A program made the translations under genes and the position numbers. From Clostridia bacterium (GTDB lineage: Bacteria > Bacillota > Clostridia > Christensenellales > CAG-138), in contig JAFPXD010000057.1 of the NCBI GenBank assembly GCA_017394835.1, positions 62,001 to 126,000 of the forward strand: 64,000 nucleotides of DNA. The letters are read 5' to 3'. Of the stretch, positions 40,510 through 44,734 are shown one piece after another (the stretch's first letter is position 1; every line of letters starts with the position of its first letter). The notes under the pieces are model-generated. The model worked only from the letters and a program-made list of their open reading frames with translations. It was not told where the DNA came from and ran no database searches.

Positions 40510-42054
40510 TCAAGGGCGCCCCGGACGGATCAGATCCTCAACAGAGTCCATGAGCCTTCTCGCAGCCTCATCGAAATGCTTTTCGGGCTCGATCTCGGAG
40601 CCGGTGAAGCTTACTGCGGCGGCGCCGTCCATTATCTCTTGGGCGCCTTCGCCTGCTTTGCCCGCGATCACCGCATAGGGGACTTGGGCCCTGCGCGCAT
40701 GTTCGATCACCGCGCCGACGGCCTTCCCGCGGAGGCTCGTCGCATCTATCGCGCCCTCGCCCGTTATTACGAGCGAAGCGCCCTTCAGCTTTCTGTCCAT
40801 CTCCGCAGCGGAGAGCACCGCTTCCGCGCCGAAACCAAAGCGGGCACCGAACACCGCCATGAGCATTGCACCCATGCCGCCCGCCGCGCCTGCGCCGGGG
40901 TTGGAGCAGACCTCCGCACCCGCATGGGCGTTGAGCAGTTTTTCCATGTTCTTCATGCCCTTTTCGAGCTTTTCGAGAGCTTCGTCATCCGCGCCCTTCT
41001 GCGGGCCGAAGGTATAGGTCGCGCCGTGCTCGCCGGTGAGCGGGGCGTCAACGTCGCAAACGACTGTCACAGCGGCGTCCTTCACGAGCTTCGAAATATT
41101 CGAAACATCTATGCTCCTTATGAGTTCCATATCGGCGGCGGACTCTATTTCCGAGCCATCCTCCGAAAGGAAACGGCAGCCCAGCGCCCTCGCCAGGCCG
41201 ATACCGCAATCATTGGTCGCAGAACCGCCGAGGCACACGACTATCTCCTTCACGCCCTCCTTGGCGGCGCGGAGCATGAGCTCGCCCGTGCCGAAGCTCG
41301 TGGTGCGCAGCGGGTCGCGTTCCTCATTTCCGATGAGGGCGATCCCGCTTGCAAGCGCGGATTCGATGACCGCTTTTGTGCCGTCTATCACAAGATAATC
41401 CGCCTGAACGGGCTTTCCGACGGGGTCGGTCACCTTTACCGACCTTCTCATACATGAGCATGCGCATTCAATCGCGTCAAGGGTGCCATCGCCGCCGTCG
41501 GCCGTGGGAACGGGAACGGTAATGACTTCGGGAAAACGATCCCTTATGGCGATCTGCAGACGCCTTACCGCCTCGCCCGCGGTAAAGGTGCCCTTAAATG
41601 CGTTGGGCGCAAGCACTATGCGGCAGGCTTCGGAATGCAGGGGGCGATCCTTATCTCGGCCCGCTATCCTTTCAAGCCTTCCGCTGCCCCCCGTGAGAGC
41701 GCCGCCCTTCACTATCCTGCCTATGAATTCCATGCCCTCATAGTTCCTTATCACGTTGTTCTGAGTGTAAGGGCATCGGCTGTCAAGCAGAGCGGCGATG
41801 CGCGCATCGGAATCGAGCTCGGCATACAGCCGACGCATAGTGCGGATACCCCCGTTCATAAACACGAGGGTATAGATCCCGCGGCTGTCCCTTTTGTCCA
41901 TGGGGCAGACGCCGCCGTAAAGCTCCGCCTCTTCAAGCAGATCGGGATCAACGGCATGAGAGACCTCCGAAAGGAAAAGCCGGATATCCTCTTCGGAGAC
42001 CTGATTCTTCAAGGTATCGAACCTTATCCCGAGCGCGAATTTAAGGATTTCCAT
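40510..42054 (-). CDS. Glycerate kinase with N-terminal extension
   Basis: This 514-residue protein ends in a full glycerate kinase of the GlxK/GarK type (about 144-514), with IVLAPNAFKGTFTAGEA, PTADGGDGTLDA, CLGGSATNDCGIGLARALG and VITGEGAIDATSLRGKAVG. It phosphorylates glycerate for entry into glycolysis. The first ~143 residues are not part of the kinase and I do not recognise them; they include YGGVCPMDKRDSRGIYTLVF and CPYTQNNVIRNYEGMEF. There is no frameshift, so this is a real fusion. It starts four bases after the clpC-like stop and is the last gene of that operon. Confidence 0.87.
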   Translation of the reverse strand: MEILKFALGIRFDTLKNQVSEEDIRLFLSEVSHAVDPDLLEEAELYGGVCPMDKRDSRGIYTLVFMNGGIRTMRRLYAELDSDARIAALLDSRCPYTQNNVIRNYEGMEFIGRIVKGGALTGGSGRLERIAGRDKDRPLHSEACRIVLAPNAFKGTFTAGEAVRRLQIAIRDRFPEVITVPVPTADGGDGTLDAIECACSCMRRSVKVTDPVGKPVQADYLVIDGTKAVIESALASGIALIGNEERDPLRTTSFGTGELMLRAAKEGVKEIVVCLGGSATNDCGIGLARALGCRFLSEDGSEIESAADMELIRSIDVSNISKLVKDAAVTVVCDVDAPLTGEHGATYTFGPQKGADDEALEKLEKGMKNMEKLLNAHAGAEVCSNPGAGAAGGMGAMLMAVFGARFGFGAEAVLSAAEMDRKLKGASLVITGEGAIDATSLRGKAVGAVIEHARRAQVPYAVIAGKAGEGAQEIMDGAAAVSFTGSEIEPEKHFDEAARRLMDSVEDLIRPGRP

Positions 42055-42058
42055 AGTT

Positions 42059-44386
42059 TCAGACCTTTCTCACGAAATATTTGCCGCCTGCGTGATCGCA
42101 CACGGCGCGGTCGCCCGCGCGAAGCTCACCGTTTATCAGGGCAAGGCTCACGGCGTCCTCAACGTGCATCGAAACGAGCCTTGATATGCTCCCGGCGGAG
42201 CCGCCGGAAGCGTCCGCAATGGCCCTTATAATGTTATCTGTAAAGGACAGGATTATCTTTCTTCTTGCGGCGCGCGAGGCAAGACGCTCCAGGCAAACGC
42301 TCGCTATGCGGCAGATGGAATCATCGTCGAGCCTTTCAAAGGGAACGGCTCTGTCCGCAAGCGAGATCACGGATGCGGGCAGCCGCCTTGCAAGCTCCGC
42401 GGGGATCTCGGAGCCCTCGGCCGAACGGCCGAAGCCCATGCTGCGCGACCCCATATCGACGGTAAGCATCAAAACGCTGTTTCTGAAGCTCACAGTCCTG
42501 CCCCGACCGTCGGTGATCCTGCCGTTCAACAGTATCTCGGTCAATATCGAAAACACTTTTTCGGAACAAAGATCGACGTTCGCTATCTGCACTACCGAAA
42601 CGGGATGAAGCCTTAAAAACTCAGTAAGTACGCCGCCTTTTTCGGCATCCTTATAACCTATGGGAGCGCCCGTCAGCCGGATGGCCGAAGCTTCATCGGC
42701 AAATTCGGCGCCGTTCAGCCGAATGACCGAATTATTGAAGAACTTTTCAGCCAATCGTCCGATAAGCGTTTTTTTGCCGGTATCCGCGGGGCCTGCCAAT
42801 ATGAACGACGCAAAGGGCTTTGAGGGATCGCCGAGACCTGCCGCCGAACGGCGAAGCACTGCGGCTATCTGCTTTACGGCTTCTTCTTGACCGAACACGG
42901 CTTCATTCAATACGCTTTCCACCGCGGAAAACCTTTCGGCGCTTTCTCCGAATACGGGATCTATACCCGTCCTTTCGGATATGACCTCCGCTACCTGCTT
43001 TTCAGTCACGGGGACGGCCGCCCTTTCGCCGCTCATGCTCTTCAGCTCTTCGCGAAGCTTCCCGGCAAGCTCATATTCTCCCCTGCCTGCGGCGGCTTCC
43101 ATCTTCCTGCGGACAGCCGCGGAGCCGTTCGCGGAAGCTTCTATGACGGCCTTTGCGCAGGCCTCGTCCATAAGATCTATCGCCTTATCCGGGAGCTGCC
43201 TGTCCGCAATGTAGCGCACGGAAAGCTCCACCGCGGCGTTTATCGCGGAGGGCTCTATCGTGACGCCGTGATGCGCCTCATACCTCGATCGCAAGCCTTC
43301 AAGAATTGCGGAGGTCTGCTCCGCAGTGGGCTCGCTCACGAGCACGGGCGAAAAGCGCCTTTCGAGCGCCGGATCTTTTTCTATGTATTTGCGGTATTCT
43401 TCAACTGTGGTGGCGCCTATTACGCGAAGCTCGCCCCTTGCAAGCGCGGGCTTCATTATGTTCGCGGCGTCAACGCTGCCTTCGCCCGCGCCCGCGCCGA
43501 CTATCGTATGGATCTCATCTATGAAGAGTATTATCCTGCCGTCTTCCCTAAGCTCATCCATGAGCGCCTTCAAGCGCTCCTCGAATTCGCCGCGGTATTT
43601 CGTTCCGGCTATCATGGCTCCGAGATCGAGCGAAAGGATCCTCATTCCGGATACGGGCTCAGGCACGTTTCCTTCCGCAATGCGCTGCGCGATGCCCTCC
43701 GCTATTGCGGACTTGCCCACTCCCGGCTCGCCTATAAGGACGGGATCGTTCTTCGTCCTGCGGCAGAGCACTGTTATCACGCGGTTTATCTCATTCTCGC
43801 GTCCGATCACGGGATCGAGCCCGCCGCATTCCGCAAGGGCGGTGAGATCGCGTGAGAAGCCGTCCGCAACGGGGGTGGATGAAGCCGCGTTTTTCCTTAT
43901 GGAACGAGGCTCTTCGGGGCAGCGAGGATGCTCCGCGGGCTCTTCCGGCTCTTCTTCCCGGGGATCGGAAAGAAGCAGGCCGCGAAGCTCTTCCGTATCG
44001 CGGCAGAGGGTGCCTATTATCCTTGCGCCGAGCGAATCCCTTTCGCGCATTATCGAAAGAAGGATGTGCTCCGTGCCGATAAGGCTCTGCCCCATCGATT
44101 TAGCCTCATAAAGGGCGAGCTCAAGTATGCGCTTAACGGCGGGAGTATTGCCGAAGCTGTCCGTGAAGATATTGCGCCCGCCGCCGATCACCGTATCGAC
44201 GTAGGGAGCAGCGTCTTCCGCCGTCACCCCGCACGAAATAAGCGCCTGCGAAGTCCTGTCGCCGCACTTAATGAGTCCCATGAGCAGATGCTCGCTGCCC
44301 ACGAAGCTGTGACCGAACGATCTTGCCGCCTCCTGCGCGCAGGAGAGGGCGTTTATCGCCTGTTCGGTGTATCTTTCGAATTCCAT
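42059..44386 (-). CDS. ClpC-like AAA+ ATPase with degenerate second ATPase domain
   Basis: This 775-residue protein has two Clp N repeats (about 1-140), a first AAA domain, a short UVR-like linker (about 428-449) and a second AAA domain. D1 is intact: Walker A GEPGVGKS (219-226), Walker B ILFIDE ending at Glu291. D2 is not: the P-loop reads GPADTGKKT (532-540), where Ser/Thr after Lys538 is replaced by Lys, and the Walker B acid pair is Ala602-Asn603. The sensor/arginine-finger region is also altered, but a GFG loop (651-653) like the ClpP contact remains. It may be a regulator or an unfoldase driven by D1 only. Confidence 0.85.
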   Translation of the reverse strand: MEFERYTEQAINALSCAQEAARSFGHSFVGSEHLLMGLIKCGDRTSQALISCGVTAEDAAPYVDTVIGGGRNIFTDSFGNTPAVKRILELALYEAKSMGQSLIGTEHILLSIMRERDSLGARIIGTLCRDTEELRGLLLSDPREEEPEEPAEHPRCPEEPRSIRKNAASSTPVADGFSRDLTALAECGGLDPVIGRENEINRVITVLCRRTKNDPVLIGEPGVGKSAIAEGIAQRIAEGNVPEPVSGMRILSLDLGAMIAGTKYRGEFEERLKALMDELREDGRIILFIDEIHTIVGAGAGEGSVDAANIMKPALARGELRVIGATTVEEYRKYIEKDPALERRFSPVLVSEPTAEQTSAILEGLRSRYEAHHGVTIEPSAINAAVELSVRYIADRQLPDKAIDLMDEACAKAVIEASANGSAAVRRKMEAAAGRGEYELAGKLREELKSMSGERAAVPVTEKQVAEVISERTGIDPVFGESAERFSAVESVLNEAVFGQEEAVKQIAAVLRRSAAGLGDPSKPFASFILAGPADTGKKTLIGRLAEKFFNNSVIRLNGAEFADEASAIRLTGAPIGYKDAEKGGVLTEFLRLHPVSVVQIANVDLCSEKVFSILTEILLNGRITDGRGRTVSFRNSVLMLTVDMGSRSMGFGRSAEGSEIPAELARRLPASVISLADRAVPFERLDDDSICRIASVCLERLASRAARRKIILSFTDNIIRAIADASGGSAGSISRLVSMHVEDAVSLALINGELRAGDRAVCDHAGGKYFVRKV

Positions 44387-44401: not shown

Positions 44402-44734
44402 CTAACCCGGAGGCCACTGCATGCTCCTGCCGCCGAGCAGGTGCATGTGAAGATGCTTGACGCTCTGACCGCCCTCTTCGCCCGTATTGATGACGAGACG
44501 GAAGCCCTTTTCGGCAAGCCCCTCGTCGGAAGCGATCTTCTTGGCCGCTTCCGTCATGCGGACGAGCATTTCCGGCTCCGCATCGAGTACGGAATCGGCA
44601 TGCTTCTTGGGGATCACGAGAACGTGTACGGGCGCCTGGGGGTCAATATCCCTGAAGGCCAGAACGTACTCGTCCTCATAGACCTTGGCCGAGGGGATCT
44701 CACCGGCAATTATCCGACAAAAGAGACAGTTCAC
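44402..44734 (-). CDS. HIT-family nucleotide hydrolase
   Basis: This 110-residue HinT-type protein hydrolyses purine nucleoside phosphoramidates. It has MNCLFCRIIAGEIPSAK at the start and the catalytic histidine triad HLHMHLLGG at the end. It starts at a GTG (44734), nine bases after AAAGGAGG. The first 35 bases overlap the end of mtaB. It lies 15 bases ahead of the clpC-like gene. Confidence 0.95.
   Translation of the reverse strand: MNCLFCRIIAGEIPSAKVYEDEYVLAFRDIDPQAPVHVLVIPKKHADSVLDAEPEMLVRMTEAAKKIASDEGLAEKGFRLVINTGEEGGQSVKHLHMHLLGGRSMQWPPG

Follow-up and report, generated by a model that had tools for sequence, protein, structure and literature searches.

What can a ClpC still do once its second ATPase module has lost its catalytic residues? 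The question is raised by a 775-aa open reading frame on the minus strand of the 64,000-nucleotide stretch of Clostridia DNA analysed here (the window; contig JAFPXD010000057.1, positions 62,001 to 126,000), which a first-pass annotation had described as a ClpC relative with an intact D1 and an inactivated D2. A non-exhaustive search of the open-access literature yielded no account of a naturally occurring ClpC whose D2 is dead.

Domain layout and motifs of the 775-aa protein

Both the reading frame and its assignment to ClpC were borne out. Pfam analysis identified Clp_N, AAA, AAA_lid_9, AAA_2 and ClpB_D2-small domains, with two Clp_N repeats (PF02861) at the N terminus. The top PDB sequence matches were the ClpC proteins of B. 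subtilis (E=1.9e-174) and S. aureus, and the top Foldseek matches of the predicted structure were likewise ClpC chains, many of them from ClpCP complexes. The positions of all D1 and D2 motifs were verified by translation, and the features are as follows.

42059–44386, minus strand: ClpC-derived AAA+ protein, 775 aa, with N domain, D1, shortened M/UVR segment and degenerate D2 (ORF)
43970–44386, minus strand: N domain with two Clp_N repeats; both pArg-site residues, Glu32 and Glu106, are present (Pfam, alignment, translation)
43148–43873, minus strand: D1 AAA+ module, every catalytic motif intact (Pfam, alignment, translation)
43709–43732, minus strand: D1 Walker A GEPGVGKS, residues 219–226 (translation)
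43514–43528, minus strand: D1 Walker B LFIDE, residues 287–291 (translation)
43010–43150, minus strand: shortened M/UVR segment, 47 aa long where 21/21 canonical relatives have 69 aa
42062–43006, minus strand: degenerate D2 module (alignments; AF2 pLDDT ~90 across most of residues 461–774)
42770–42793, minus strand: D2 Walker A remnant GPADTGKK, residues 532–539, Thr replaced by Lys (alignment, translation)
42632–42658, minus strand: D2 pore loop GYKDAEKGG, a clade-specific change from GYVG(Y/F)(D/E)(D/E)GG with the Tyr retained
42578–42595, minus strand: D2 Walker B remnant VVQIAN, residues 598–603, DE replaced by A602-N603 (alignment, translation)
42455–42457, minus strand: D2 sensor-1 position, Asn replaced by Asp (D644; alignment, translation)
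42431–42439, minus strand: ClpP-docking tripeptide MGF, residues 650–652, in a loop predicted to be disordered; GF retained in 19/19 degenerate orthologues
42359–42361, minus strand: D2 arginine-finger position, Arg replaced by Leu (L676; alignment, translation)
42191–42193, minus strand: D2 sensor-2 GAR position, Arg replaced by Gly (G732; alignment, translation)

As annotated, the D1 motifs are intact, and this extends to the KYRG pore loop and the ALERRF arginine finger; the D2 P-loop Ser/Thr (now GKK) and the Walker B acids (now Ala-Asn) have indeed been lost, these being two of the five D2 losses that the protein carries. Across the 19 degenerate orthologues compared, the D1 K/S/D/E/T/R positions are intact in every protein and the D1 pore aromatic is Tyr in 17 and Phe in two. 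In D2, nearly all catalytic positions have been lost, with the P-loop Lys retained in 16 of the 19. Given that the D2 positions K, T, D, E, N, R and R are retained in 21/21 canonical relatives, the loss of D2 motifs is, on these alignments, far beyond chance.

On this evidence the protein is filed as a ClpC-derived variant with a putative pseudo-ATPase D2. It is a ClpC by descent and has the intact D1 expected of one, aromatic pore loop included (as in 19/19 orthologues), but it lacks the intact D2 (Walker A and B, sensors, arginine finger) by which a ClpC is recognised in function. ClpB, which is present in the same genomes, shares the N-D1-M-D2 Hsp100 architecture but differs in its long M domain, its active D2 and its lack of a ClpP loop; the window protein clusters with ClpC, carries the MGF loop, and has a 47-aa segment where the family ClpB compared has one of 131 aa. 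Nor does it belong to the classical AAA proteins (NSF/CDC48), as it has Hsp100 domains and ClpC as its best matches, with only a weak match to CDC48.

Distribution and origin of the degenerate D2

The searches covered 60 relatives and then 103 genomes of the family, nearly all of the sequences compared being metagenome assemblies. The decayed D2 was found in 12 of the 13 sampled genomes of the window's genus (g1), the thirteenth being 53% complete, and the same decayed D2 was present in one genome of the sister genus g12. A third genus, g10, contributed six genomes with an intermediate D2, in which Walker A is intact (GKT or GKS), Walker B reads DN, DD or EN, sensor 1 is mostly lost and the finger Arg is lost; the EN form is less certain, with Asn and Arg aligned at the last two positions. 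Orthologues with canonical D2 motifs, which the first-pass annotation had said would indicate a recent lesion in this strain, were not what the comparison returned: the 12 g1 members and the g12 protein are degenerate and those of g10 intermediate. The recurrence of the same decayed D2 in independent genomes rules out a strain lesion or an assembly error. The carriers are uncultured Clostridia MAGs, mostly from the rumen (of sheep or buffalo, where a source is stated).

In an N-domain-plus-D1 tree, built without the decayed D2 module, the 19 degenerate proteins formed a single clade (bootstrap 100, SH-aLRT 99) nested within the canonical ClpCs of the family, and the degenerate-D2 trait required one change. 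A profile of the degenerate D2 scored 412–480 bits against the g1 and g12 proteins versus at most 265 bits against all other D2s of the family. When 396 genomes of the order were scanned with the degenerate-D2 model, the clade scored at least 377 bits and no other genome exceeded 328 bits, the three next-best genomes being canonical. In a class-wide scan of 391 genomes only the window's own passed 1e-100, the model being blind to independent D2 losses. Within the sequences sampled, the phylogeny demonstrates a single origin of D2 decay, and by the same comparisons the 775-aa protein is a vertically inherited descendant of ClpC. The g10 proteins suggest an order of decay in which the hydrolytic Glu, sensor 1 and the arginine finger would have gone first, with Walker A retained, and nucleotide binding later, in g1 and g12.

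ClpC, ClpP and ClpX in the carrier genomes and the family

The first-pass annotation had allowed that a normal clpC might exist elsewhere in the genome. This expectation did not hold: a search of the window's genome (assembly 93% complete) for a canonical ClpC returned only ClpB, ClpX, HslU, a Lon-type protease and a 401-aa stand-alone AAA protein as AAA_2 proteins. The same search of the other degenerate-clade genomes found no canonical ClpC, yielding only ClpB and the degenerate protein. Because the absence recurs across many genomes, it is credible despite the 93% completeness. The 401-aa AAA_2 protein (L004 940–2145; near 217162 on G000:C2) has intact Walker motifs and a ClpB-like GYVG pore loop, and is without a Clp N domain.

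ClpP is a single conserved gene in the degenerate-clade genomes, alongside ClpX, which has its own MGF in every genome examined for it. A specialised ClpP was considered and rejected, as nothing unusual was seen in its active-site region or ClpX loop beyond lineage-specific changes. One such difference lies in the handle region of g1 ClpP (L147–L156), which reads GGAYGQASDVKIHA versus mostly GGARGQATD or GGARGQASD in relatives; these handle changes might be a co-adaptation to the altered ClpC.

Elsewhere in the family, ClpC is seemingly absent from g2, g6, g11 and g16 and from five g10 genomes, whereas ClpB remains, as do ClpX and ClpP where checked. From this survey ClpC appears to have been lost repeatedly within the family, and since no ClpC was seen in 5 of the 11 sampled g10 genomes, clpC is dispensable there. 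In genus g14 (L078–L087), ClpC/ClpE-like proteins of ~775–785 aa match the query only from D1 onward and possibly carry a different N-terminal module; their D2 motifs are intact and the x-Gly-Phe loop is present.

Changes in repression elements and in the response to ClpP

M-domain contacts keep ClpC at rest and inactive, and taking them away fully activates it (PMC5699869). The D1–D2 linker, which holds the M domain, is 69 aa long in 21/21 canonical proteins; in the degenerate set it measures 39–58 aa in 14 proteins and 9–20 aa in five, near-complete loss of the M segment corresponding to four independent events on the tree. A UVR-like aromatic is kept in the 47-aa segment of the window protein, and because 14/19 degenerate proteins retain a shortened segment together with its aromatic, the loss of repression is, judged from sequence, incomplete. 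The N domain tells a similar story at the pArg-site residue E106, which is retained in 3/19 degenerate proteins (the window protein being one) versus 20/21 canonical ones; ClpC is partly activated by E106A (PMC12583610).

Among the regulators, MecA was not found in any of 61 relatives in a search that detected its controls, and searches for McsB came up empty in g1, in g12 and in the only g10 genome checked, as they did in several canonical genera. The idea that D2 decayed because McsB, CtsR or MecA had been lost was rejected, since the losses are not specific to the degenerate clade: CtsR and McsB are missing from several genera with canonical ClpC too. The losses are nevertheless consistent with a ClpC driven by a single motor.

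ClpP signals to the D2 site of ClpC via the sensor-1 Asn, an allo-W pair and an allo-R segment (PMC12521514). In the degenerate D2 all three are altered or shortened, the allo-R segment in part, and the segment from GF to the finger helix is mostly 16–22 residues (13 in one protein) versus 21–28 in canonical ClpC. With these ClpP-sensing elements near the D2 site changed, coupling to ClpP must differ. The comparisons thus suggest that the brake and the ClpP-to-motor signal decayed together with the D2 motor, while the ClpP anchor was retained.

Genomic surroundings

The degenerate clpC lies in a same-strand run of genes comprising prmA, rsmE, mtaB, a HIT protein, clpC and glycerate kinase (names assigned partly by resemblance), which is largely conserved in g1 and partly in g12 and g10. 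Its immediate neighbours were identified by Pfam and neighbourhood comparison.

44402–44734, minus strand: HIT-domain (HinT-like) protein, upstream neighbour
40510–42054, minus strand: glycerate kinase with N-terminal extension, downstream neighbour

The extension of the kinase (41635–42054, minus strand) is ~135 aa long, has no Pfam match and shows a conserved FALGxRFD...PxxQxN pattern. Its profile matches 58/103 family genomes, where it is usually fused to the kinase and in some occurs as short separate ORFs. The kinase gene adjoins the degenerate clpC and, in genus g5, a canonical clpC as well, an arrangement that supports positional orthology rather than a dedicated partnership. As the extension also occurs without a degenerate ClpC, the kinase was rejected as a dedicated partner or adaptor, and it is probably not a functional partner of the degenerate ClpC.

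A proposed mechanism

The best explanation of these observations, and one that we consider reasonably probable, is a largely de-repressed ClpC powered by D1, with D2 serving as a passive dock for ClpP. D1 would bind and hydrolyse ATP and thread substrates, whereas D2 would act as a passive collar, completing the hexamer and letting the polypeptide through its pore, and would dock on ClpP by the x-Gly-Phe loops that it has kept. Since the loss of the D2 motor, the devices of repression (coiled-coil M domain, pArg1 site of the N-terminal domain, McsB and MecA) have been reduced or are absent. The resulting machine would lack a resting state; it is probably constitutively assembled, and probably weaker than a normal ClpC. 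The conservation pattern indicates that one ring, D1, probably does all the work, and a single-motor ClpC is the most economical reading. To the fuller history we give an even chance: the ClpP-facing ring would have become a dead dock with D1 alone working, arising once via hydrolysis-dead intermediates, and repeated loss of the M-domain and N-terminal-domain brakes would then have produced an unregulated single-motor ClpCP. Of the two roles floated by the first-pass annotation, a D1-only machine fits better than a regulator of ClpC, because no normal ClpC remains to be regulated.

Laboratory equivalents with a non-hydrolysing D2 bear on whether such a machine could work. Chlamydia ClpC with a mutated D2 Walker B (E644A) retains ~70% of ATPase activity with unaltered chaperone activity (PMC10128030), whereas the corresponding mutant of ClpE (E551A) loses most degradation (PMC13125188). 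Since the ClpE mutant is so impaired and most ATPase activity of B. subtilis ClpC comes from D2 (quoted in PMC10128030), a dead D2 could be crippling. By analogy with the two mutants, a single-motor ClpC is possible, not guaranteed, and both results would be compatible with a machine specialised for weakly folded substrates. The engineered proteins carry a single substitution in an intact D2, whereas in the window protein the whole D2 active site has been replaced naturally, under selection.

Docking-loop retention, selection and alternative explanations

AF2 modelled the 775-aa protein with a mean pLDDT of 84.7 (~90 in D2), and the degenerate D2 is accordingly predicted to retain the AAA+ fold. 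The docking loop (residues 648–656) is predicted to be disordered (pLDDT <50), in contrast to the confident remainder of D2. Of 98 D2 columns invariant in canonical proteins, 17 are still invariant in the degenerate set, compared with 67/98 in D1; the survivors are mostly Gly and Pro, and include Gly651 and Phe652, the latter being the sole invariant aromatic among them. As its loop is predicted to be disordered and the rest of D2 is confident, Phe652 is probably not retained for folding.

These data bear on the possibility that the protein is a chaperone independent of ClpP, in which D1 serves as an unfoldase or holdase, the D2 ring only keeps the hexamer assembled, ClpXP takes care of proteolysis and the GF loop is a relic. 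The loss or shortening of ClpP-sensing elements (allo-W, the sensor Asn, a portion of the allo-R segment) would agree with this, as would a ClpX equipped with its own MGF. A relic should drift, however, yet GF is invariant in 19/19 proteins within a fast-evolving, predicted disordered loop, in a module from which most canonical-invariant residues have gone. We therefore regard this explanation as unlikely.

A GF loop retained on a dead D2, with ClpX and ClpP intact, could also belong to a regulator or decoy, that is, a weak or non-translocating ring that occupies the ends of ClpP and tunes the access of ClpXP; it has been suggested that Chlamydia ClpC, when overexpressed, outcompetes ClpX for ClpP2 (PMC10128030). 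Such a decoy would need no perfect D1 motor, whereas the D1 catalytic and arginine-finger residues are kept in all 19 proteins, along with the pore aromatic, and ω for D1 is ~0.05–0.10, which makes this role improbable.

We also considered a decaying gene, in which D2 was lost since ClpC no longer matters in these bacteria. The absence of any ClpC from several genera and from the five g10 genomes speaks for it, as does a D2 that evolves several times faster than D1: within g1, pairwise ω is 0.17–0.28 for D2 versus 0.05–0.10 for D1, whereas canonical pairs give ~0.02–0.05 for D1 and 0.07–0.13 for D2, all being pairwise estimates with dS above 1 and hence rough. By these ratios the degenerate D2 is clearly relaxed yet under purifying selection, not neutral. 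The reading frame is open in 19/19 orthologues, with neither frameshift nor internal stop, D1 is strongly conserved, the D2 fold is predicted to persist and the gene keeps its place in the run across g1. Simple decay is thus a still more improbable account.

Least probable of all is a hydrolysis-dead D2 that still binds ATP as a structural ligand and, as in NSF, holds the ring together: the P-loop Lys persists in 16/19 proteins, and most g10 proteins combine GKT/GKS with a DN-type Walker B, which with an intact P-loop is a classic bind-without-hydrolysis change, but nearly all g1 members have lost the Mg-binding Asp as well as the P-loop Thr/Ser, making Mg-ATP binding by their D2 doubtful.

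Comparison with known machines and significance

Read as a D1-powered ClpC docked through its D2, the window protein has in common with the ClpC proteins of B. subtilis and S. aureus and with Mycobacterium ClpC1 the N-D1-M-D2 order, the D1 motifs, the (predicted) D2 fold and the x-Gly-Phe loop. It differs from them in that the D2 catalytic motifs are all lost and the M segment is shortened (absent in some orthologues); across the degenerate clade, moreover, the pArg1 Glu is mostly lost and McsB and MecA are absent. A parallel in the division of labour is offered by NSF, whose D2 is inactive and mainly structural, yet binds ATP. NSF/Sec18 is likewise a two-ring AAA+ machine with a D1 motor and a mainly structural D2, a ring that in NSF is symmetric (PMC6160233), an arrangement proposed for the window protein from its sequence; unlike the window protein, it belongs to another AAA+ clade, has kept ATP binding in D2 and has no protease partner.

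How the two rings of ClpC-type machines share the work is disputed: most ATPase activity comes from D2 in the B. subtilis protein and from D1 in its Chlamydia counterpart, and ClpE needs both rings. In this lineage the D2-dead experiment appears to have been run by evolution, its result kept across many species with intermediates surviving. By its pattern of retention and loss, the lineage separates the docking of ClpP, for which the loop is retained, from D2 hydrolysis, which would be lost, and it ties the disappearance of the motor to that of the M-domain brake.
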